This document shows, in pieces, positions 15,713 through 35,675 of a stretch of DNA of 35,675 nucleotides (position 1 is its first letter; every line of letters begins with the position of its first letter). The notes under the pieces were generated by a model. The model did not search any database. It had not been told where the DNA came from and saw only the letters and a program-made list of their open reading frames with translations. Source of the stretch: a virus; the IMG/VR virus record IMGVR_UViG_3300022074_000163, positions 1 to 35,675 of that record; one strand, 5' to 3'. Both the position numbers and the translations under genes were made by a program.

Positions 15713-15726
15713 ACTTTTGGGACTGA

Positions 15727-15793
15727 CTCCAATCAGTCCGTGAATTAACACGCTGATGAGTATCCTAATTATGGGATGCAAGAAACTTTGGAG
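15727..15793 (+). ncRNA. Imperfect hammerhead-ribozyme candidate in the operon leader
   Basis: A core CTGATGA (15753-15759) is followed by a 6-bp stem II (GTATCC with GGATGC, 760-765 and 774-779) and GAAA (782-785). Stem I is CGTG/CACG (739-742 and 749-752), directly after a GTC cleavage triplet (736-738). Stem III could form from CTCCAA (727-732) with TTGGAG (788-793), plus AG/CT next to the core. Two faults reduce confidence: an extra AA between stem II and GAAA, and a two-base bulge in stem III. A competing hairpin (GGACTGA/TCAGTCC) uses the same 5' strand. The 3' strand of stem III is the Shine-Dalgarno of the next gene. Confidence 0.35.
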
Positions 15794-15803
15794 TAAATGT
15801 TTT

Positions 15804-16028
15804 ATGAGTAATACATATAGCAAACAAACACTTGAATTTAAAGAAACTTTGGAAAGGTTTATGCAAAGACTTGATTTAATACAACGTGAATACGATGAAA
15901 AAATAGACAAGCTTATTAAATTAAGAGAAAAAGAACTTACTATATATTGGGAACTCTTAGATCGAGAAAGACCTGAACTTGCGAACAAAAAAGTTGAAGT
16001 GGTTAACGATGAGCCAACTGATGATTAG
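15804..16028 (+). CDS. Small coiled-coil protein, first gene of the ribozyme operon
   Basis: The 74-residue protein is charged and helical (TLEFKETLERFMQRLDLIQREYDEKIDKLIKLREKELTIYWELLDRERPELANKK), with an acidic tail. Heptad-like spacing of L and I suggests a coiled coil. The chosen ATG at 15804 has TTTGGAG ten bases upstream; an in-frame ATG at 15756 has no ribosome site and would run through the leader structures. Its stop codon (16026-16028) lies inside stem II of the type I hammerhead ribozyme. I do not recognise the family. Its place before the MoxR-type ATPase suggests it belongs to that system. Confidence 0.5.
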   Translation: MSNTYSKQTLEFKETLERFMQRLDLIQREYDEKIDKLIKLREKELTIYWELLDRERPELANKKVEVVNDEPTDD

Positions 16029-16073
16029 CTGAAATGCTATGAAAACATCCTAATTATTTAGGGTGTTATTGGT
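16013..16073 (+). ncRNA. Type I hammerhead ribozyme
   Basis: All conserved parts are present in order. Stem I 5' strand GCCAA (16013-16017) is followed by core CTGATGA (16018-16024). Stem II is TAGC/GCTA with a U-U pair next to the core (16025-16040, loop TGAAAT), then GAAA (16041-16044). Stem III has 9 bp, ACATCCTAA with TTAGGGTGT (16045-16053 and 16058-16066, loop TTAT). The cleavage triplet is TTA (16066-16068), and stem I 3' strand is TTGGT (16069-16073). Cleavage is predicted after 16068. Stem I is open, which defines type I. The ribozyme overlaps the last codons and stop of the gene at 15804-16028, so translation to the end of that gene would disturb its fold. Confidence 0.8.
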
Positions 16074-16124
16074 GTAAGTGTAATGCTTACGAAAACTTAT
16101 ATATTTCTTTGGAGGGAAATTATT

Positions 16125-17189
16125 ATGTTTAAACCTAGTGAAGCAAAAAAATCCTGTTTACATATTTTGATGGGAAGCAATATCCCATTCTTAATTGGTG
16201 GAACAGGTGTTGGTAAATCTGCGATTGTTAAAGAGATCGCTGAGGAACTAGCGAATGATAGAACTCTTACAGACTCAACAAGTCCTAAAGATGATGAATT
16301 TGGATTTATCTCTTTTAGATTGGGGTTAGTGGAATCTATCGACTTAGGTGGTTTGCCATACATTGAAGATGGTGAGCAAAAGAAAGCATTTTTAGGCAAC
16401 TTGCCTAAGGATGGTGAAGGTCTATTTTTCCTTGATGAATTTGCTCAAGCACATTCAAGCGTTCAAGCAACGATAGGACAATTACTTGATCCAAAAGGTA
16501 AAGATGAAGATCGCAAGATTGGTGATTATATCTTTCCAAAAGGATGGAAAATTGTGTTGGCAGGTAATAGACATACTGATAGAAGTGGTGCGAATAAGGT
16601 GCTAAGGCATTGTCAAGATCGAACTACTGCAATTCAGTTTACCCACGATGTTGACGATTGGTTAGCGTGGGCAGATAAGAGCGACATTGATCTCAATGTG
16701 CAAGGTCTTATCAGATTCATGCCACAACTATTGTGGGAGTTTGACCCTAAGTGCAATGACCCTCAGCCAAGTCCAAGATCATGGGCAAGGTTAAGTGATA
16801 CGCTGAAAACTGACCCACCACGAGAACTTAGACAAAAGTTATTCGAAGGTGATGTTGGACAAGAATGTGCCATTGAATTGATGAACTTTATCTCACTTCA
16901 AAATGACGTGCCTAACATATCTAAAATATGTAAAGGTGAAGATGTTGAAATGATTGATGAAGCTGGTCTTTGCTATGCAACTACTATCGCTCTTACTAAT
17001 GCTATCAATAGTGCTAGTGAGAATGATGTCTATAACTATTTTGCTAATGCTTTGGATTATCTGAAGAAATTGGCAACTGTAGAATTTTCTATATTCTTTG
17101 TTAGAAAGATTGTTGGATTAAGAAGCGAACTTAAAGACTGCGATACTTATTCTAAATTTAAGATTGATAACCAAGACTTAGAAATTTAG
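16125..17189 (+). CDS. MoxR-type AAA+ ATPase
   Basis: The 354-residue protein has Walker A GGTGVGKS (residues 25-32), Walker B LFFLDE (100-105) and a sensor 1-like AGNRHTD (146-152), in the compact arrangement of MoxR/CbbQ-type AAA+ proteins. These hexameric ATPases act as chaperone-like remodelers, usually paired with a von Willebrand A protein. Such a partner is encoded two genes downstream (18438-19712). The start at 16125 has GGAGGG eight bases upstream; an earlier in-frame ATG at 16083 has none. A type I hammerhead ribozyme precedes the gene and a long hairpin plus a type III ribozyme follow it. The substrate in the phage cycle is unknown. Confidence 0.8.
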   Translation: MFKPSEAKKSCLHILMGSNIPFLIGGTGVGKSAIVKEIAEELANDRTLTDSTSPKDDEFGFISFRLGLVESIDLGGLPYIEDGEQKKAFLGNLPKDGEGLFFLDEFAQAHSSVQATIGQLLDPKGKDEDRKIGDYIFPKGWKIVLAGNRHTDRSGANKVLRHCQDRTTAIQFTHDVDDWLAWADKSDIDLNVQGLIRFMPQLLWEFDPKCNDPQPSPRSWARLSDTLKTDPPRELRQKLFEGDVGQECAIELMNFISLQNDVPNISKICKGEDVEMIDEAGLCYATTIALTNAINSASENDVYNYFANALDYLKKLATVEFSIFFVRKIVGLRSELKDCDTYSKFKIDNQDLEI

Positions 17190-17204: not shown

Positions 17205-17250
17205 GGAATTAGGAATATTTATTATTGACTAGTAAATATTCCTTTTCTGC
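17205..17250 (+). repeat. Long hairpin at the 3' end of the MoxR gene
   Basis: A perfect 11-bp inverted repeat, AGGAATATTTA (17211-17221) with TAAATATTCCT (17233-17243), encloses an 11-base loop. Outer G and C runs (from about 17201 and up to 17250) can extend it. The 3' arm carries a minus-strand copy of the AAATATTTACYRGT element. It lies four bases before the hammerhead at 17254, so after cleavage it would become the 3' end structure of the upstream message. Confidence 0.6.
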
Positions 17251-17253
17251 CCA

Positions 17254-17308
17254 TTCTGATATTGAGATGTGTATCTCAACTGATGATTAGAAAACTATGA
17301 AATCAGAA
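17254..17308 (+). ncRNA. Type III hammerhead ribozyme
   Basis: Stem III is 6 bp, TTCTGA (17254-17259) with TCAGAA (17303-17308), and is the open stem. The cleavage triplet is ATA (17259-17261). Stem I is 7 bp, TTGAGAT with ATCTCAA (17262-17268 and 17273-17279, loop GTGT). The core CTGATGA is at 17280-17286. Stem II is TAG/CTA with a U-U pair next to the core (17287-17298, loop AAAA), and GAAA is at 17299-17302. Cleavage is predicted between 17261 and 17262. It lies in the gap between the MoxR gene and the 321-residue gene, 26 bases before the latter's start, and is followed by AACTCAT and the Shine-Dalgarno. Confidence 0.88.
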
Positions 17309-17334: not shown

Positions 17335-18300
17335 ATGAATAATGAAAATGTAAACACTTTATCTGAAAATGCGACTTTGGTGCGTTTGAATACAAAACAC
17401 CCATCTGGAGTTAAATCAGATAAGGATTTAAAAGAAGGTCTAGCAATAGATCAATCTGCAATGAGTGAATCTTTGCACGTTGCTAAATACATCTTTGGAA
17501 AAGAAACTAATAAATACTTTAGAAGAATTATTAATCAATTCAGAAATAATGTTTATTATCCTTTGACTGTTCCATGGGATGACAACACTAGCGACTACGA
17601 AGGCAAGGTCTTGAGTGGGTGGCGTTTATGCCCTAATCAGGAACTTGATACTCTTATGGATAAGGTAAACGAAGCTAAGAGTGATTTTGAGAAAGAGGTA
17701 AAAGGTTTTCTTGATAATTACGACAACTTGATTGATGCAAACAGGCATAAATTAGGTCATGCTTTTAAGATATCTGATTATCCAACTAAAGAGGAAATTG
17801 AAACTAAATTCAGATTTGATTTTGAGTTAGGACAAGTGCCAACTATTAGTAAAAGTGATGTGCGATTAAATGTATCAGAATCACTTAGAAAGAAGATTGA
17901 GCAAGATGCAATTAAGAGAGCCAACAAGAATGTAGAAGCTATTACTAGAACTACAGTGGAAACTCTTTTGGAATCCGTTGATCACCTAGCAGAAAAGTTA
18001 AAGTCTTATGACCCTAACAATAAGCAAGGTGGAGGATTCTTTAAGAACTCTAGTTTTAACAAGCTTAGACAATTTCTTGATACGCTTCCATCTATCAATA
18101 ATGACATTTTAAATAATGACAAATTGATTGCTGATGCTCATCAAAAATTAGTTAGCGTGTTTGCTTCTATTAATGACGTAGATTCTTTAAGAGAAGATGA
18201 TGATTATTCTGCTAAGAAACGAAAACAAATAGCAGATGATTTAGAAGATTCTGTTGATGAATTAAAAGGTGGATTCTTAGACAATATGTATAAGAAGTAA
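17335..18300 (+). CDS. MoxR/VWA-associated protein (DUF3150-like), function unknown
   Basis: The 321-residue protein starts at ATG 17335, six bases after GGAG. It is mainly helical and acidic. An N-terminal segment (AIDQSAMSESLHVAKYIFGKETNKYFRRIINQFRNNVYYPLTVPWDDN) is followed by a WRLCPNQELDTLMDKVNEAKSDFEKEVKGFLDNYDNLIDAN block and several long helices (SLRKKIEQDAIKRANKNVEAITRTTVETLLESVDHLAEKL). It resembles proteins annotated DUF3150 that lie between MoxR-type ATPases and VWA proteins in other phages; this is from memory and moderately uncertain. It is flanked on both sides by hairpin plus hammerhead modules. It may be the adaptor or target-binding component of the ATPase system. Confidence 0.55.
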   Translation: MNNENVNTLSENATLVRLNTKHPSGVKSDKDLKEGLAIDQSAMSESLHVAKYIFGKETNKYFRRIINQFRNNVYYPLTVPWDDNTSDYEGKVLSGWRLCPNQELDTLMDKVNEAKSDFEKEVKGFLDNYDNLIDANRHKLGHAFKISDYPTKEEIETKFRFDFELGQVPTISKSDVRLNVSESLRKKIEQDAIKRANKNVEAITRTTVETLLESVDHLAEKLKSYDPNNKQGGGFFKNSSFNKLRQFLDTLPSINNDILNNDKLIADAHQKLVSVFASINDVDSLREDDDYSAKKRKQIADDLEDSVDELKGGFLDNMYKK

Positions 18301-18354: not shown

Positions 18355-18407
18355 TTCTGTCTTTGGATGTGTGTCCAAACTGACGAGATCAAAAGATCGA
18401 AACAGAA
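18355..18407 (+). ncRNA. Type III hammerhead ribozyme (most canonical copy)
   Basis: Stem III is TTCTG (18355-18359) with CAGAA (18403-18407). The cleavage triplet is the canonical GTC (18359-18361). Stem I is TTTGGA/TCCAAA (18362-18367 and 18374-18379, loop TGTGTG). The core is CTGACGA (18380-18386). Stem II is GATC/GATC with an AAAA loop (18387-18398), including the canonical G-C pair next to the core, and GAAA is at 18399-18402. Every conserved core position is met. Cleavage is predicted between 18361 and 18362. It sits 30 bases before the VWA gene and is followed by AAACTCAT and TTTGGAGGGG. Confidence 0.93.
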
Positions 18408-18437: not shown

Positions 18438-19712
18438 ATGAAAAGTGAAGAACGAATAATTAAAGCTAGATCGAAACTAATGAAAGGTAATATTGGTATG
18501 GCAACTATGCTACTAAAACTCACCTTAGTTAGAGAAGATGAAAAGTGTCAAACAATGGCTACTGATGGCGTTAGTATTTATTGGAATGATGAATTTGTTA
18601 AATCAATAACAGATGAGGAAATTCAAGCAGTATTAATACACGAAGCTAGTCATGTTATTTGGGAACATCCTTTGCGTAAGGGTAAGCGTGACCACCAACT
18701 TTGGAACATAGCCACAGACTATGTAATCAATGGGTGGTTAAAGTATGACTTGCGTATGGAACTTCCTGAGGATGGTCTGCTTGATCGCAAGTATCATGGT
18801 ATGTCTGCTGAAGCAGTTTATAGAACTCTTAGCAACGATGATGATGCTTTAGAAGAAGCGATAGATCAGATCAATAACAATTCTGAAGATGGTGAGACAA
18901 GCAATAGCAACGAGGGTCAAACTCTTGCTGAGAAACTTGCTGACTTACCTCAATTAAGTGGTGAGGTTTGGGTGCCAACTAATGAAGATGGCAAGGAATT
19001 ATCACCTAATGAAATGGCTGAACTACAAGAAGAATTGCAACGAACAATAATGATGGCTGATAAGCTAGAAGGTATTGGAGACAATGCAGAAAGTAGTTTG
19101 GGTAAAGCAGTTAAGCAGATGAACAGATCATGCGTTGATTGGGTTGATGTCATGCGAGACTTCTTACAGTCTGCTATGTCAAAAAATCCTACATGGTCAA
19201 GACTTAACAAACGTCATTCATGGCGTGGTGTTAATTTGCCTAGCAACGATAAAGAGCCACATGGTGGCGAGATTGTTGTTGCGATTGATACAAGTGGAAG
19301 TGTGACCCAAGAAGAACTTAATATTTTTGCTACTGAAACACAGAACTTAGCTGAAGAATGTGGAGTAGATAAAGTTAGAGTTTGTTATTGTGATACTAGA
19401 GTTCATAAGAATTCACATGGTGAGTGGTGGGATGAATACGACTTAGAATGTGAAGAACTTGAATTTCATCTTCGTGGTGGTGGTGGTACTGACTTCAATC
19501 CACCTTTCAACTTATTCAACGACTATACAGATAATACAGATGAAGTACTTGCTTTCATTTATTTTACTGATGGAGGTGGATATGTTGATAAGGAGGTTGA
19601 GCCAAATGTCCCTGTTATATGGGCATTAACTACTACTTACTATCAAGATTACTATAACGATATGAATTTTCCTTTTGGAGAAGAAGTAGTTATAGATATG
19701 TCTAGTATTTAA
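18438..19712 (+). CDS. Metallopeptidase-like / VWA-domain protein (DUF2201 type)
   Basis: The 424-residue protein starts at ATG 18438, six bases after GGAGGGG. The N-terminal domain contains HEASH (residues 68-72), a HExxH zinc-peptidase motif, followed by NIATDYVIN, as in the DUF2201 metallopeptidase-like domain. An acidic linker of about 70 residues follows. The C-terminal VWA domain has a complete MIDAS set: DTSGS (284-288), T351 in GGGGTDF and D378 in FTDGGG. This is the usual partner of a MoxR-type ATPase, and the two are in one operon here. The complex probably remodels or cleaves a protein target, either host or virion. The target is unknown, and whether the peptidase is active cannot be decided from sequence. 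Confidence 0.8.
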   Translation: MKSEERIIKARSKLMKGNIGMATMLLKLTLVREDEKCQTMATDGVSIYWNDEFVKSITDEEIQAVLIHEASHVIWEHPLRKGKRDHQLWNIATDYVINGWLKYDLRMELPEDGLLDRKYHGMSAEAVYRTLSNDDDALEEAIDQINNNSEDGETSNSNEGQTLAEKLADLPQLSGEVWVPTNEDGKELSPNEMAELQEELQRTIMMADKLEGIGDNAESSLGKAVKQMNRSCVDWVDVMRDFLQSAMSKNPTWSRLNKRHSWRGVNLPSNDKEPHGGEIVVAIDTSGSVTQEELNIFATETQNLAEECGVDKVRVCYCDTRVHKNSHGEWWDEYDLECEELEFHLRGGGGTDFNPPFNLFNDYTDNTDEVLAFIYFTDGGGYVDKEVEPNVPVIWALTTTYYQDYYNDMNFPFGEEVVIDMSSI

Positions 19713-19814: not shown

Positions 19815-19872
19815 AAACTGTATAGGAAATGCGTATTTCCTACTGATGATCGCTAAAAGCGTGAAACAGTTT
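19815..19872 (+). ncRNA. Type III hammerhead ribozyme
   Basis: Stem III is AAACTG (19815-19820) with CAGTTT (19867-19872). The cleavage triplet is GTA (19820-19822). Stem I is a perfect 8 bp, TAGGAAAT with ATTTCCTA (19823-19830 and 19835-19842, loop GCGT). The core CTGATGA is at 19843-19849. Stem II is CGC/GCG with a U-U pair next to the core (19850-19862, loop TAAAA), and GAAA is at 19863-19866. Cleavage is predicted between 19822 and 19823. AACTCAT (19877-19883) and TTGGAG follow before the next gene at 19904. Confidence 0.88.
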
Positions 19873-29147: not shown

Positions 29148-29483
29148 ATGCTAAAAGATATACTACAAGAAAAGTTAGATAAAAGAAAAAGGAAGTGGTG
29201 GGAATGGCACAAAAAAAATCCACAGGTTTGGGATAAGTTTGAGGAATACACATTAGAGGCTATCCATAGTGGTAGAAAAAAATACTCACAATGGGCGATC
29301 ATAAATCGTATTCGTTGGCACAATGAGATAGAAACAAAAGGTGGTGAGTTTAAGATTAGTAATGATTACATAGGTTTCTATGCAAGACTATTCCACGCAA
29401 GGCATCCACAACACAAAGACTTCTTTACACTAAAACCATTGAAAGAAGAAAAAGATATAGCTATGTTAGAGGTTAAGACTTAG
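29148..29483 (+). CDS. Conserved phage protein, function unknown
   Basis: The 111-residue protein contains KRKWWEWHKKNPQVWDKFEEYTLEAIHSGRKKYSQWAIINRIRWHNEIETKGGEFKISNDYIGFYARLFHARHPQHKDFFTLKPL. This tryptophan-rich block with closing ARLFxxxHPQxxxFF is one I recall in many phages, usually unannotated and near RusA or replication genes. GGGAGGAAAGCAAATG is its ribosome site. The end overlaps the convergent giant gene by 18 bases, which leaves no room for a terminator between them. Confidence 0.6.
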   Translation: MLKDILQEKLDKRKRKWWEWHKKNPQVWDKFEEYTLEAIHSGRKKYSQWAIINRIRWHNEIETKGGEFKISNDYIGFYARLFHARHPQHKDFFTLKPLKEEKDIAMLEVKT

Positions 29484-32400
29484 AACAGGTATATTAGCTC
29501 TCTTTTTTAGTTCTGGCACCATAGCTAGTCTCATATCTCTTTCTAGCTCTAGTTCACGAAGCATATCTGACTTAACTGATACAGATATGTTCTCATCTCT
29601 CATCAGTCTATCTCTACGCTTTCTCCAGTTGTCTAAGTATCTCTCAATCGCTCTTACTTGACCTTTGACATTCAACACGCCTTGCATATTGCTTCTGTAA
29701 GCTGATAGCTCATCAAATCGTTGTTGTTTCTGTAGCGAGTTGATAGTTGCTACTGCCCTGTCAACCTCACCTCTTAACTCATAGAATTGTTGCTGATAGC
29801 CACCAGACTTATCTAAATCAAGTAATAGTCTATTAATGACTGGTAGTTTATTTAATTCAAAGTTAGAAGGTAGTAGAGGACTTCCTGTAGCTCCTCTAGT
29901 GATAGTATCTACTAAAGCTAATACATATCCACCAAGAGTTCCTGTATAACCTCTCATAATGTGTTCTATCTTTGATGGTGAAACATTAAGAAACTCACCC
30001 ATAATTCTTGCAAATTCATTGGTAGTTGCCCTTGCTTGTAGTGCAGGTTCCTTTTGTTGTTGATAGTAAGGCACAATTTCTGTATCAGTAAAACTATTTC
30101 TGTTAGCTCTAACTTCAGCTATTGGTTTAATTAATTGCAAACCAGCACCTGGCTGGAAGAATGGAATATTTGCTGAAGTGCCTAATTGTCTAGTTATAGA
30201 GGTTAATGCTTCATCAGCAGATTTTCTTGTAAAAGCATCATCTCCTAAGGTCATATCAAACACTCTTTCAGGTATAGCTTTAAACAACATACCTACCTCA
30301 AATGGAATAGGTATCTTAACTGCATTTCCACTACCTATAGGTATTACCCAGTTATCATCTCTTACTTCTCGTTTAAGATTTTTGTATTCATCTGTATCAT
30401 GCACCATCAAGTAATACAATAGTGTTAAACCAGACAACAAACCACCATTCAATAATGCTCTCCTCATTATCCTTGATTGAACATCTTTAAGTGTTTCACC
30501 CTCACCAAGTTTTTCTACAGAAGAATATTGACCAGTAAATCCTCTATACAGAACATCTAAACCTTGTATTCTTGCATTTAAAAATGGTATGGCTGCAGTA
30601 ACTATTCTGAAATTAGTGTCTAAACCACGCCTTCCAAAATTTATTATTTCTAATCCCTGGAACGCTGCTTCGGACTGAGCTTGTGCTTCTGTATAACCTT
30701 CATTCTTTAGTTTCTTATATACAGCATCATATACTGCCATACGAGTTGCACCATCAGATTTAGTGGTAAGTGCTCCAAGACCATCCCATAATTTAAAGAA
30801 AGCTCCAGAGGCTGACATACCATTATTTGGTGTCAATCCTTTTTGTCTCATTGTTCTAGTGATAAATTGTTTTACACTACCTTCATCATTGGCAAAATCA
30901 TAACCACCAAGTACACCAAACTTTTCTAAGTTTTCCATCTCACCAAACATATTTTTTACTGAATCAACAAATGGTGTATATGGAGCACCACTTGTTACAG
31001 CAGAAGATAAGGTATCTCTTAATATGTTTACAACAACAAATCCAGGGTCTCTTGTAACAGTATCTCTTAATAATCCTGCAGGCATTGCTAGTACTTGTGC
31101 TATTGGTCCTACACTTGTGCCACCGATAGCTTGTATGCCATGAAATAAATTAACATCATCTAACTGATAATATTGTTTTATACCATCTTCAAAAACAAAT
31201 ATAGTATTTAATCTACCTGCTTGTTTAGCACTTACTTTTCTTGCTTCACCTATTGATTGTAAGTCTCTTAATAATTTGGCAGTACCATCATTTTTTAGTG
31301 CTGCAGTAAGAATAGATAGTGAGTTTCTTGATATAGCTTCTATTGGGTCTGCATCAATAGGTTTCTCTGATCCAGTAATCTTTATACTTAATGGGTTATT
31401 AGGTAATGATCCACCTGCTATTCTTGGTCCCTGCATATCTGCATCATCTATCATTTGTTTATAGAAAGGATAATATGATGAGTGTGTTTTCCACATCTGA
31501 GCTTGTTCAGGGTCTAATAAACCTTTATTTTCTGCAAACTCTATTAGTCTATTGTTCCATCGTTGATAATTGTTATAGACCTCTACCACTTCTGGATGTT
31601 GCTGTTCTATTTGTTCTATAAGAGCAAAATCTTCAGGTCTTACTGGTGTATCTATTTCTTTACCAGTTTCATCAAATGTCTTTGCTCTTTTTAAAGTAGC
31701 ATATAACTTAAATACTTGTTCTAAATTAACATCAGGATTTCCATACAATGGTGCTAATATTTGTACTAAACCACCTGTTTCTCCATTTTCTAACTCTAGG
31801 TCTTTTATATTTGCTAAAGCTGCTTGACCATCTATAACATCAGTTACATAACCTCTAGTAAGAAGTCCTGCAAATAAACCTCTAGCTCTATCTGCTAATC
31901 TTAAAGCAGCCATAGTAGCTGTATCAGCAGTATTATTTGCAAGTCTTACATCTTCATTATCTTCTTTTGCTTGTATTATTTTCTTTTCTACTGCATCTAA
32001 TTTATCTACAAAATTTGTTCTAAAGTTTTTAAATACATTACTAATAGATGTGACTGGGTCTTTTACTGCTTCAATAGTTCTAGCACCCCAAGACACATCT
32101 GGTCTATGTTCACCACCTAATCTTTCTGCTGCTTCTGCAATATTAGGGTCTACATTATCAAGAGTAGGTCTTGAGAACTTAGGTATGTCATCTGGTGCTG
32201 TAGCAGATAGGTCTCTATTAAAGTCTATGGCAGCCTTTAAAGCTGTATCTGAGGCATTTAAATTGTAATAAGGTATTGAACCCCTAGGTGTTTGTTTAAC
32301 TGTTTCTTCGGCTTCTGCTAGAGCTTCTCTTAATTGTATATTTTCTTGTGAGTTTGTGCCTGTATCATCTCTCCTTTTTCTACTAAATAAAGGTAACTGT

Positions 32401-35400
32401 CCTGTGCCAGTCTGTAATTCTTCTAATCTTTTTTCTGTTTTAGTAACAACAGCTTGTGCATTAAAAAGCCTTCTATCAAGAGTAGTTCTTTCATCACCTC
32501 TTAATGTATCTTGAAATAACTCTCTTTCTGTTTTGTCTACTAAATTACTATGATAGCTAAGACTATCTTCTAATATTTGTTGAGAGGCAGTATCTATTTG
32601 TTCTTGTGTTGTTGGAAATCTACTTGGTGCTCTACTAAAAGTAGGTATATCTCCACCTATATCTACTACTTCAGATGGAAAATATCCCCATCTTTCTAAT
32701 GAATTACCATCCCAACGAACATCACCTGCTTTTAATTTATAAGTAAATAGTTTAGATGGAGTATCTTCAGGTATTGTTAGCATTGAATCAAAAGCATCAA
32801 ATAGTCCTTCATCTCTCCTAGCAGTAAGCTCATCTACACCTCTATCTAATCTATCTTGTATTCTTCTAGCTTTATCTGATTCTTTTATTTCTTTCTTAGT
32901 TATTTTAGATTGATCAACATAATATTGAGCTTCTGATTTAGATGGTGTTATTAGGTCTCCTTCACGCAATTCTTCAGTAGGTGCTGCTCTATACATAGTT
33001 ATAGTTGCATTAGGATCACCTTTAATCTTTCTTAACTTATTCATAAAAGCCATAGTTTCTTTATAAATAGCTTTTTGTTCTGGATTATTCATGCCATATG
33101 ATGCGACATAAAATTGTGGATTTGTATAAATATCTGACGGAGAAAAACCATCTCCATCAACTTGTTCTAATAAATTACTAGCTCTTGGACCTCTTATTGG
33201 TGGAACAAAATCAGCAGCCATACCAGATGATTCATCTCTTGGTGGTCTACTAAATAGAGGCACATCTCTAACATCTCTTGTATCAAGATTGATGCCAGTT
33301 GTTTGTAAGTCTAATGCTGTAGAAGCATTTTTAAGAAATGCAGATAATTCTGTATTAAGTTTTGCAGGCACAGCTAATAATTCTCTAATTACTTCTACAA
33401 ATTTATTCCATAAATTACCAGTAGCATCTTTACCTAATGGTATAGATTCAAGCATTTCTTGAAAATTTCTATTAGTTAAACCAAATGTTAATAGTTCTGA
33501 AACATCACCTCTATTTTGAGGTTGTGTACCATATAACTGATATTTAATGTAATAGTTTTCAAAATTTCTTTTTCTGTCTCGTTCTAATGATTTTTCTGTT
33601 TTAGTAATAATTCCATCGTCATATTGTCTTAAATATATATTTGCTATTGTTTTTTCTATTTCAGGAGCTTTAGAATAAACATCTTTAAATATTTCTAAAT
33701 TTGTTTGATCACCAGTGCTGACATCTTGAAGTATTTTATCTGATAAATCTTCATAGAATCTCATCTTACTTCTATAATGATTTCTAATTCTATTAGCTTG
33801 ACTTCTTAATTCTTTTTGTGCTTTTAGTGCTTTAGAACCACCATCAGGAGATAATTTAGCTAATATACTTGGACTACCTGATGCAGCATAAATTTGAGCT
33901 AAAGTAGCCTGATGTATGCCTTCATGTAATATAGTTTCAAAATTTACACCATTTTTTGTTTTCCAATCTTGATAATTTTGATCACTAGCCAATGGAGCAG
34001 AATTAAATCCTTTGCCATCATCATTTAAAGACATAGTATAAGTAAAAGGTTGACCAAATTTATCTTCTTTACCACTAGGATTAATTTGACCTCTAATACG
34101 CCCTGTTAAACCATTTATATTTCCTACTTTAAAATTTAAAGGAAATGATCTTCCTTGTTTCTTTAATGCTAATAAAGATTTGTGAACTTTCCCTGCAATA
34201 ATTTTATAATCTTGACTTGGTGAATTATCTATTAACCACTTCATCATTTTTACAGAATCATTATTACCTTTAATAGTTTTAGTTACATTACCATCTTTAT
34301 CAAAAACGTCTTTATCTAATATTTTTGCATCTTGTAAACCTTTAATTATTTTTTCTCTCTCAGAATTATATTGTGCATTAGATAATGTACGAGAATTATA
34401 AATAGTTGTAGGTGTAGTAGGTGGTGTAACAGGACCTGTTGGTGCTGGTGGCACTGGTGGTGCTGGTGTTGGTTTTGGTATAGCTGTAGGTCTTATGCCT
34501 CTAGGTCTTAGAGTCTGTCTTATCTCATCACCAGGAATTGGCTCTGGTGCTCTTATAACTTCATCTCGTTCTTCTGTTGTAAGAAAACTAGCAGGAATAC
34601 GACCTGCATCTACAAGTCTTGTAGTTCGCACAACTCCTCTCTCTCTTGCACCAACTCTGCCAGATTCTATATTATTAAATATTTCTGTAGCACTCTTGTA
34701 GCCTGAGCTACGCATTGCTTGTCCTGCAGTTTTAAAGAACTGAATTATCTTATTAAATATGCCATCTACTTTAGGTGGAGTATTAACCAGTAAATCTTTC
34801 TTTCTAAATAGTTCTGCTATAGCTTCCTCATAAAGAAATTCTGTAGCTTCTGCTGATGTTCTTGTTTTTGCAGCAATATCTGAATAAGTACCTTGTGCTT
34901 GTGCAAGAAAAGTAGTATTAGTATTAGGAACTTTTTGTTGTTCTACTTGTTTTTTAAGATATTGATATTCTGCTTCAGTAATTAAATCTTTTGCTCTAAG
35001 AGCATGAATCATCTCATGGTCTAATACTTTTCTAAGTCTTTCTTCTATTTCTACTTCTGTAGCACCACCATCAGGATTAACTGCATTTAAAGATATAAAT
35101 ATAGTATCTGTATTTTTATCATATTCTCCTTCAGCTTTATCACCAGTTCTAGGATCAATTAATCTTCTTGGATCATACTTTATTTCTCCATCTACTCTCC
35201 TTAATGTAGTAGTAGAAATTATGTCATCACTTACAACAATACCAGTATCTTTTAAGCCAACGCCATCTAATCTTTTTCTAAGTTCTTTTGCAAACTTGCT
35301 AACCTTACCTTCTTGCAAAGTCTCAGCATAGTTAATAAATTTAGGTTCTATCTCTACAGGTGGTAATAAATTTTCCTGATTCGTTCTTTCTTTTTCTACT

Positions 35401-35675
35401 AAATCTGCAATAGATTCTGCAGGTAATACACCTTCTGCAGTAAGTCTTGCACCAAATTCTTCTGGTGTTTCATTAAACCCTTCTGCTTTTCTAGCTATAT
35501 CAAACTCAAAGTTATCTCTAATCTTATAGTTATTAGTGCCTTCTACTTGTTCAGCTCTGCCACTATAAATTAAATCATCTATAAATTGTTTTGTAGCAAC
35601 CTCATTTTTTCTAATAGAATCTGGTCCAACTTTTAATAAAGTATTTTTATCAAAAATAATATTGTTGCTTTTTGC
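29466..35675 (-). CDS. Giant polyvalent virion-type protein (5' end cut by window)
   Basis: The frame is open to the window's right edge; 2069 residues are visible. A TTG at 35318 is only an internal codon, not the start. Two HExxH peptidase motifs are visible: HEMIH (35004-35018) and HEGIH (33912-33926). They are followed by a proline-rich linker and then helical regions. A segment with ITMYRAAP, LITPSKSEAQYY and LERWGYFP resembles an ADP-ribosyltransferase-like domain. The C-terminal 900 residues resemble LPD38-type domains of large polyvalent proteins. Four PxFSR motifs lie between domains (32169-32183, 32379-32393, 32631-32645, 33246-33260). Proteins of this type are thought to enter the host with the DNA. 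The exact role is unknown. Confidence 0.7.
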   Translation of the reverse strand, partial: AKSNNIIFDKNTLLKVGPDSIRKNEVATKQFIDDLIYSGRAEQVEGTNNYKIRDNFEFDIARKAEGFNETPEEFGARLTAEGVLPAESIADLVEKERTNQENLLPPVEIEPKFINYAETLQEGKVSKFAKELRKRLDGVGLKDTGIVVSDDIISTTTLRRVDGEIKYDPRRLIDPRTGDKAEGEYDKNTDTIFISLNAVNPDGGATEVEIEERLRKVLDHEMIHALRAKDLITEAEYQYLKKQVEQQKVPNTNTTFLAQAQGTYSDIAAKTRTSAEATEFLYEEAIAELFRKKDLLVNTPPKVDGIFNKIIQFFKTAGQAMRSSGYKSATEIFNNIESGRVGARERGVVRTTRLVDAGRIPASFLTTEERDEVIRAPEPIPGDEIRQTLRPRGIRPTAIPKPTPAPPVPPAPTGPVTPPTTPTTIYNSRTLSNAQYNSEREKIIKGLQDAKILDKDVFDKDGNVTKTIKGNNDSVKMMKWLIDNSPSQDYKIIAGKVHKSLLALKKQGRSFPLNFKVGNINGLTGRIRGQINPSGKEDKFGQPFTYTMSLNDDGKGFNSAPLASDQNYQDWKTKNGVNFETILHEGIHQATLAQIYAASGSPSILAKLSPDGGSKALKAQKELRSQANRIRNHYRSKMRFYEDLSDKILQDVSTGDQTNLEIFKDVYSKAPEIEKTIANIYLRQYDDGIITKTEKSLERDRKRNFENYYIKYQLYGTQPQNRGDVSELLTFGLTNRNFQEMLESIPLGKDATGNLWNKFVEVIRELLAVPAKLNTELSAFLKNASTALDLQTTGINLDTRDVRDVPLFSRPPRDESSGMAADFVPPIRGPRASNLLEQVDGDGFSPSDIYTNPQFYVASYGMNNPEQKAIYKETMAFMNKLRKIKGDPNATITMYRAAPTEELREGDLITPSKSEAQYYVDQSKITKKEIKESDKARRIQDRLDRGVDELTARRDEGLFDAFDSMLTIPEDTPSKLFTYKLKAGDVRWDGNSLERWGYFPSEVVDIGGDIPTFSRAPSRFPTTQEQIDTASQQILEDSLSYHSNLVDKTERELFQDTLRGDERTTLDRRLFNAQAVVTKTEKRLEELQTGTGQLPLFSRKRRDDTGTNSQENIQLREALAEAEETVKQTPRGSIPYYNLNASDTALKAAIDFNRDLSATAPDDIPKFSRPTLDNVDPNIAEAAERLGGEHRPDVSWGARTIEAVKDPVTSISNVFKNFRTNFVDKLDAVEKKIIQAKEDNEDVRLANNTADTATMAALRLADRARGLFAGLLTRGYVTDVIDGQAALANIKDLELENGETGGLVQILAPLYGNPDVNLEQVFKLYATLKRAKTFDETGKEIDTPVRPEDFALIEQIEQQHPEVVEVYNNYQRWNNRLIEFAENKGLLDPEQAQMWKTHSSYYPFYKQMIDDADMQGPRIAGGSLPNNPLSIKITGSEKPIDADPIEAISRNSLSILTAALKNDGTAKLLRDLQSIGEARKVSAKQAGRLNTIFVFEDGIKQYYQLDDVNLFHGIQAIGGTSVGPIAQVLAMPAGLLRDTVTRDPGFVVVNILRDTLSSAVTSGAPYTPFVDSVKNMFGEMENLEKFGVLGGYDFANDEGSVKQFITRTMRQKGLTPNNGMSASGAFFKLWDGLGALTTKSDGATRMAVYDAVYKKLKNEGYTEAQAQSEAAFQGLEIINFGRRGLDTNFRIVTAAIPFLNARIQGLDVLYRGFTGQYSSVEKLGEGETLKDVQSRIMRRALLNGGLLSGLTLLYYLMVHDTDEYKNLKREVRDDNWVIPIGSGNAVKIPIPFEVGMLFKAIPERVFDMTLGDDAFTRKSADEALTSITRQLGTSANIPFFQPGAGLQLIKPIAEVRANRNSFTDTEIVPYYQQQKEPALQARATTNEFARIMGEFLNVSPSKIEHIMRGYTGTLGGYVLALVDTITRGATGSPLLPSNFELNKLPVINRLLLDLDKSGGYQQQFYELRGEVDRAVATINSLQKQQRFDELSAYRSNMQGVLNVKGQVRAIERYLDNWRKRRDRLMRDENISVSVKSDMLRELELERDMRLAMVPELKKRANIPVLSLNL

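Follow-up and report, generated by a model that had tools for sequence, protein, structure and literature searches.

What does a predicted self-cutting RNA do when it lies across the stop codon of a small phage gene? The window analysed here, a virus record of 35,675 bases, carries portal and capsid genes and a terminase gene whose product shares 51-60% identity with the terminases of phages HTVC027P, HTVC023P, 023Pt_psg01 and DSL-LC04. An operon begins on the + strand near 15.7 kb, in the order leader, accessory gene(s), moxR, DUF3150 gene and VWA gene. An earlier note on this sequence placed a type I hammerhead ribozyme at 16013-16073, over the end of the gene ahead of moxR, and proposed that translation of that gene controls the cutting of the message.

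Ribozymes of the operon

The accessory gene of the window is an open reading frame (ORF) of 74 aa (15804-16028, + strand) with no PHROG match and with its Shine-Dalgarno sequence at 15787-15793. Its protein ends in ...EPTDD, and its last codons are ribozyme sequence. On the same strand follow a MoxR-type AAA ATPase (16125-17189; PHROG 1297 ATPase, Pfam AAA_5), a DUF3150 protein (17335-18300; Pfam PF11348) and a VWA-like or putative metallopeptidase-domain protein (DUF2201; 18438-19712; Pfam PF13203 and PF09967). Behind each of these three genes the descriptor found a type III hammerhead on the + strand, at 17254-17308, 18355-18407 and 19815-19872, with predicted cuts after 17261, 18361 and 19822, respectively. 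A strict descriptor search of the whole window returned four hammerheads, all on the + strand, against a chance expectation of 0.02 per window (200 first-order Markov windows, both strands, all types). One is of type I and three are of type III (cores at 17280, 18380 and 19843), so that the first copy does differ in type from the three downstream, as had been pointed out. At the other side of the record, a single open frame of 2069 codons (29466-35675) runs on the - strand, opposite in direction to the ribozyme operon, and exits the record end.

In the type I element (16013-16073, + strand), GCCAA (16013-16017) and UUGGU (16069-16073) form stem I, and CUGAUGA (16018-16024) and GAA (16041-16043) form the core. 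UAGC (16026-16029) pairs with GCUA (16036-16039) in stem II, which is closed by the loop UGAAAU (16030-16035), and stem III (16044-16053 with 16058-16067) has 10 pairs, one of them U-G. With A16068 as H17 (not G) and A16044-U16067 as the A15.1-U16.1 pair, the core is that of a type I hammerhead. The stem order, with stem I open and stems II and III closed, is also that of type I by descriptor and fold, and by covariation in relatives. The minimum free energy (MFE) fold of 16008-16092 is this hammerhead plus a separate hairpin at 16074-16090 (+ strand), which directly follows the ribozyme, close to where the moxR message is predicted to begin, and whose pairs change on both sides in relatives. 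Complete core, three stems, descriptor match and MFE fold agree on the element as it was originally placed. The UAG of the upstream ORF (16026-16028, + strand) indeed lies within the stem II strand, and the assignment of H17 to A16068 gives the same predicted cut, after 16068, that had been claimed.

Rfam models reported no hammerhead in the window even at E = 10; snoRNA, miRNA and sRNA matches there were under their cut-offs and were taken as chance. Relatives of the window element scored at best 30.3 of the 48.5 bits of the RF00008 gathering cut-off, which is a detection threshold and not a defining feature of the type I hammerhead. Against RF03152 (RAGATH-1-hammerhead) the relatives reached 27.5-30 of 56.3 bits, below the cut-off for a model that includes a 5' hairpin stretch, and the window copy was not among the matches. 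Like the phage element, the RAGATH-1-hammerhead is of type I, with stems II and III closed and stem I short and open, and the relatives match it weakly. However, the conserved stretch and hairpin that its model has 5' of stem I are replaced in the phage copies by variable coding sequence.

Comparisons of 72 distinct type I copies showed that pairs 2-4 of stems II and III are kept in all 72, versus 31.9-43.2 after shuffling, and that pairs 2-4 of stem I undergo double changes. Since a match to the descriptor needed five pairs in stem I and three or more in each of stems II and III, the pairing percentages are tilted towards the model, which is not true of the range of pair types. All 72 copies have the core, A15.1-U16.1 and a non-G H17, though the descriptor demands them. 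The base of stem II is usually G-C in hammerheads; it is U-U in 30 of the 72 copies, including the window copy, in which U16025 stands opposite U16040. In a descriptor-free alignment (A1; MAFFT, moxR-anchored, 20 stretches with simple stem III), the core columns CUGA.GA are invariant or nearly so, the free position 7 excepted, and stem I varies on one side only. RNAalifold recovered three elements from A1, namely stem I, a portion of stem III and the hairpin after the cut; of the 18 pairs, 8 have both partners replaced in some sequence. In A1 the subtypes are out of register by one base at stem II and at the GAA, so that only these three parts were taken from it, and stem II counts come from the 72 copies. 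As judged from sequence, the type I element is real as a conserved RNA, and its cutting is predicted. The loop UGARAU and the A before stem I are both conserved and may be partners in a tertiary contact between stem I and loop II.

The operon leader (15719-15786, + strand), also conserved, was absent from the earlier note. Relatives and fold show a hairpin with a CUCCAA loop and then a hammerhead-like element (core 15753-15759), in which GUC precedes a GAAUUAAC-loop stem I and is followed by CUGANGA, stem II and GAAAC. Two extra A stand ahead of GAAAC in the window (15780-15781) and in every leader copy shown (L006, L010, L013, L021, L022 and others), and cleavage of this element is doubtful. 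A canonical type III leader with the same loop occurs in the divergent phages L084, L096, L126 and L149. The CUCCAA loop of the first leader hairpin is complementary to the downstream Shine-Dalgarno sequence UUGGAG.

Stop codons, accessory genes and ribozyme types among relatives

A search with the MoxR protein found 52 loci, whereas a search with the 74-aa ORF found two, which are near-identical contigs in IMG/VR, and none in the phage collection. Thus, relatives retain the ribozyme and not the gene that precedes it. A type I pattern scan of IMG/VR gave 75 stretches. The operon adjoins most of the pattern-found type I copies, with MoxR identities from 27.5% upward, and 17 of 69 newly fetched loci had no match to the five operon proteins searched. 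Across IMG/VR phages, 134 distinct type I descriptor matches were obtained; among bacteria and archaea, sampled with one genome each for 84,980 species, nine pattern stretches were found and none passes the full descriptor. No hammerhead was seen in the first 50,000 bases of HTVC027P, HTVC023P, 023Pt_psg01 and DSL-LC04 or in the scanned moxR regions of S-TIM54, pVa5 and Pag-Yong1, so that no cultured carrier was found in the stretches scanned of these seven phages. Counts that include loci found by the ribozyme pattern (the 88-copy and 134-copy sets and part of the 72-locus set) are biased towards having the ribozyme. The ribozyme-blind counts are those of two protein-based samples, the 52 MoxR loci (L005-L056) and a second sample of 59 distinct loci. 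No p-values are claimed, because loci of one lineage are not independent.

The offset of the stop codon was measured from the core C to the first base of the stop. An upstream ORF stops within -12 to +14 nt of the core in 119 of the 134 distinct type I copies, and 15 have no ORF stop in this range; a copy with its stop at -47 (L116, core 1828) is kept in this set and counted against the rule, but it lies in coding sequence and was dropped as a chance match before the 88-copy counts. Among the 88 copies, the commonest arrangement has a UAA that abuts stem I on its 5' side (offset -8, 50 copies), followed by +8 (13) and +1 (11). The rarer offsets are -7 (3), +12 (3), -12 (2), +14 (1) and further upstream (5), and one of the 88 offsets is unreliable because the copy is cut by the contig end (L025, core 21). 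A stop in stem II, as in the window, is therefore a minority arrangement and not the conserved feature. In contrast, the stop offsets of 96 distinct type III copies range from -278 to -51, with none within -40 to +14.

The 79 distinct proteins upstream of type I copies fall into 38 families (blastp E < 1e-3). All 13 proteins that stop at +8 end in PTDD although they are drawn from 7 of the 38 families; the ending is common to them because the ribozyme encodes it, indicating that the RNA, not the protein, is kept by selection there. As the 74-aa ORF itself has no relatives beyond the near-identical contigs, joint conservation of coding end and core was examined across different upstream genes, where the ribozyme-encoded ending recurs. 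In 43 copies the triplet at -8 is out of the ORF frame. An A nevertheless stands directly before stem I in 43/43, and the triplet is UAA in 13/43 versus 14/430 at comparable upstream places, so that the stop codon seems, on sequence grounds, to be partly a piece of the ribozyme. The UUAG subtype reads stops at +1, +8 and +12, one per frame.

The presence of the type I ribozyme follows the presence of an accessory gene. The leader is seen in 44 of 72 distinct moxR loci, 34 with a filled and 10 with an empty gap between leader and moxR, and type I occurs in 34/34 filled and 0/10 empty gaps; the other 28 loci show no leader within the sequence covered, and type I is present in 25 of them. When only the protein-found loci (L005-L056) are considered, the counts are 18/18 for filled gaps, 0/10 for empty gaps and 13/13 without leader. 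In the second protein-based sample, type I was found in 56 of the 59 distinct loci, 54 by script and two, with branched stem III, by eye. One further locus has an empty leader-moxR site with leader (L196), and two have moxR with neither type I nor an empty site and a different element instead (L205 and L214). These two share a structured-looking stretch just upstream of moxR with no recognisable hammerhead. The longest ORF stops at -12 to +14 in 44 of the 54 script-found loci, and most of the other ten have an out-of-frame UAA at -8 or a hairpin between stop and ribozyme. Units of gene and ribozyme also occur in series, with two in L024, three in L031 and four in L101. Loci L035 and L040 carry the same gene, with 170/170 identical upstream bases, on unrelated ribozyme interiors. 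Both the lack of conservation of the upstream gene and the association of accessory gene with type I had been missed in the earlier note.

Pfam searches with seven accessory proteins gave a sole match above cut-off, Kyano_Gp96, in one protein. In PHROG searches with eight, this protein and two others clearly matched PHROGs of unknown function and the other matches were weak, so that neither set of matches (Pfam, seven proteins; PHROG, eight) gave a function for the accessory slot. Upstream of moxR in L008 and L010, an ORF reads through a ribozyme-like remnant (EPTDDQSLDE); downstream of it come a 79-aa ORF and an intact type I ribozyme, in that order. In their close relatives L006 and L049 the ORF ends at EPTDD. 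Stem III is branched in 19 distinct type I copies (L013, L015, L016, L024, L026, L031, L035, L048, L096, L114, L118, L125, L147, L149, L173, L176, L197, L228 and L232), with a UUAAA junction, a hairpin that often has a bulge and a GNRA-like loop, and a second hairpin. The branched stem III is a candidate domain for ligand binding or tertiary contacts.

Type I and type III alternate at the same junctions. A type I copy follows moxR in L025, L082 and L118 and follows the DUF3150 gene in L034, L036, L037, L043 and L046, and the window has type III at both places. A history of simple duplication is therefore unlikely, in line with the original view that the operon did not gain all its ribozymes in that way. 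The spacers between stop and type III ribozyme contain a hairpin in 96/96 cases, with an MFE below -8 in all, a median z of -5.5 and 95/96 below -2. The fold places the corresponding hairpin of the window at 17211-17243 (+ strand), after the stop of moxR and ahead of the first type III ribozyme.

Probable function of the type I copy

The reading that we favour, with a probability of about 0.6, is that the type I ribozyme is the 3'-end module of the accessory gene in a ribozyme-punctuated phage operon. The ribosome would stop at the stop codon abutting or within the ribozyme, and the RNA would fold and cut 3' of the stop, ~40 nt after the UAG in the window copy. In this way the accessory gene would gain a message of its own that ends with the stem III hairpin; this may stabilise the message and permit separate expression. 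The next message would begin with a 5' hydroxyl and, before moxR, would have a hairpin near its 5' end. Type I is suited to a 3'-end role, since the cut comes after its core, which would stay with the upstream message. In type III the core is 3' of the cut and would go with the downstream message, and a separate hairpin would close the upstream one. Thus, with either type, the upstream message would end in a hairpin, supplied by stem III in type I and by the spacer in type III.

The coupling proposed at the outset would instead make the element a switch, in which the core is hidden by a ribosome that completes the upstream gene and only poorly translated messages are cut. Given the usual ribosome footprint, termination would place a ribosome over stem I or the core in nearly all copies with a nearby stop. 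The geometry therefore allows masking, and this part of the proposal is tenable for the 119 copies counted above. However, the stop offset varies over 26 nt, the frame varies, the commonest stop is just outside the ribozyme, and the type III copies of the same operon are far from stops. In all cases counted, the predicted cut comes after the stop, so that the upstream gene would lose nothing by early cutting and protection of the message would bring no gain. Compactness accounts for the arrangement of stop and ribozyme equally well, and we regard the switch as unlikely.

The conserved sequence could also matter as DNA, as a recombination handle for the swapping of accessory genes to which RNA cutting is secondary. 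Identical flanks around different ribozyme interiors, the runs of 2-4 units and the many unrelated genes seated on similar ribozymes are consistent with such exchange. Strong covariation of stems II and III would be needless for a mere DNA handle, though, and type III copies persist at fixed junctions, which leaves this explanation quite unlikely. An RNA that is a hammerhead by descent and no longer cuts, acting as a terminator-like or protective 3' structure, would agree with the U-U at the base of stem II in the window copy, with the weak Rfam scores and with a fold that by itself yields a stable 3' hairpin. The near-invariant core of the descriptor-free alignment and the uniform core, A15.1-U16.1 and H17 of the 72 copies, which the descriptor demands, argue against loss of cutting, and we consider it very improbable. 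Starting from the favoured 3'-end module, a broader scheme is possible and is offered tentatively: marine phages may keep an exchangeable accessory-gene slot filled by self-cutting 3'-end cassettes, in which the 5' bases of the ribozyme would supply the stop and close any frame, the message would be cut free, the shared ribozyme DNA would serve as exchange point, and the branched stem III could sense a ligand.

Relation to known hammerheads

Perreault et al. 2011 (PMC3088659) described clustered hammerheads that flank single genes in prophages and proposed processing into single-gene messages; some arrays cut in vitro and one in E. coli. The present operon resembles those arrays in that several mixed-type hammerheads lie close together around single genes of phage origin; four flank single genes on one strand in the window operon, and the arrangement is similar in relatives. 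However, the genes of those arrays are described there as not constant, whereas the operon is conserved here, and no link to stop codons is made in that article ('stop codon', 0 occurrences), whereas here type I is fused to accessory-gene stops and type III lies elsewhere. A 2017 review (PMC6155905) describes a discontinuous hammerhead of mammals, located in the 3' UTR of Clec2 genes. It resembles the phage element in that it belongs to a protein gene and lies in the untranslated region 3' of it, but it is mammalian, is an atypical type III in which helix I is very large, and does not lie between phage genes. The same review notes the phage link of prokaryotic hammerheads and calls their role open. 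No description of stop-codon-fused, one-per-accessory-gene ribozymes was found in the open-access PMC literature. Clusters of hammerheads in phages had been reported by 2011, and the conserved MoxR operon adds to them a ribozyme that is fused to the stop codon and occurs once for each accessory gene.

These marine phages provide a large, conserved and countable natural set with a strict rule for the position relative to the stop codon, a rule that ties presence or absence of the ribozyme to accessory genes, and natural swaps of type I and type III at the same junction. Message processing and translation coupling are therefore directly testable with one short construct. The operon would be a natural counterpart to the punctuation by ribozymes with which engineers insulate genes.
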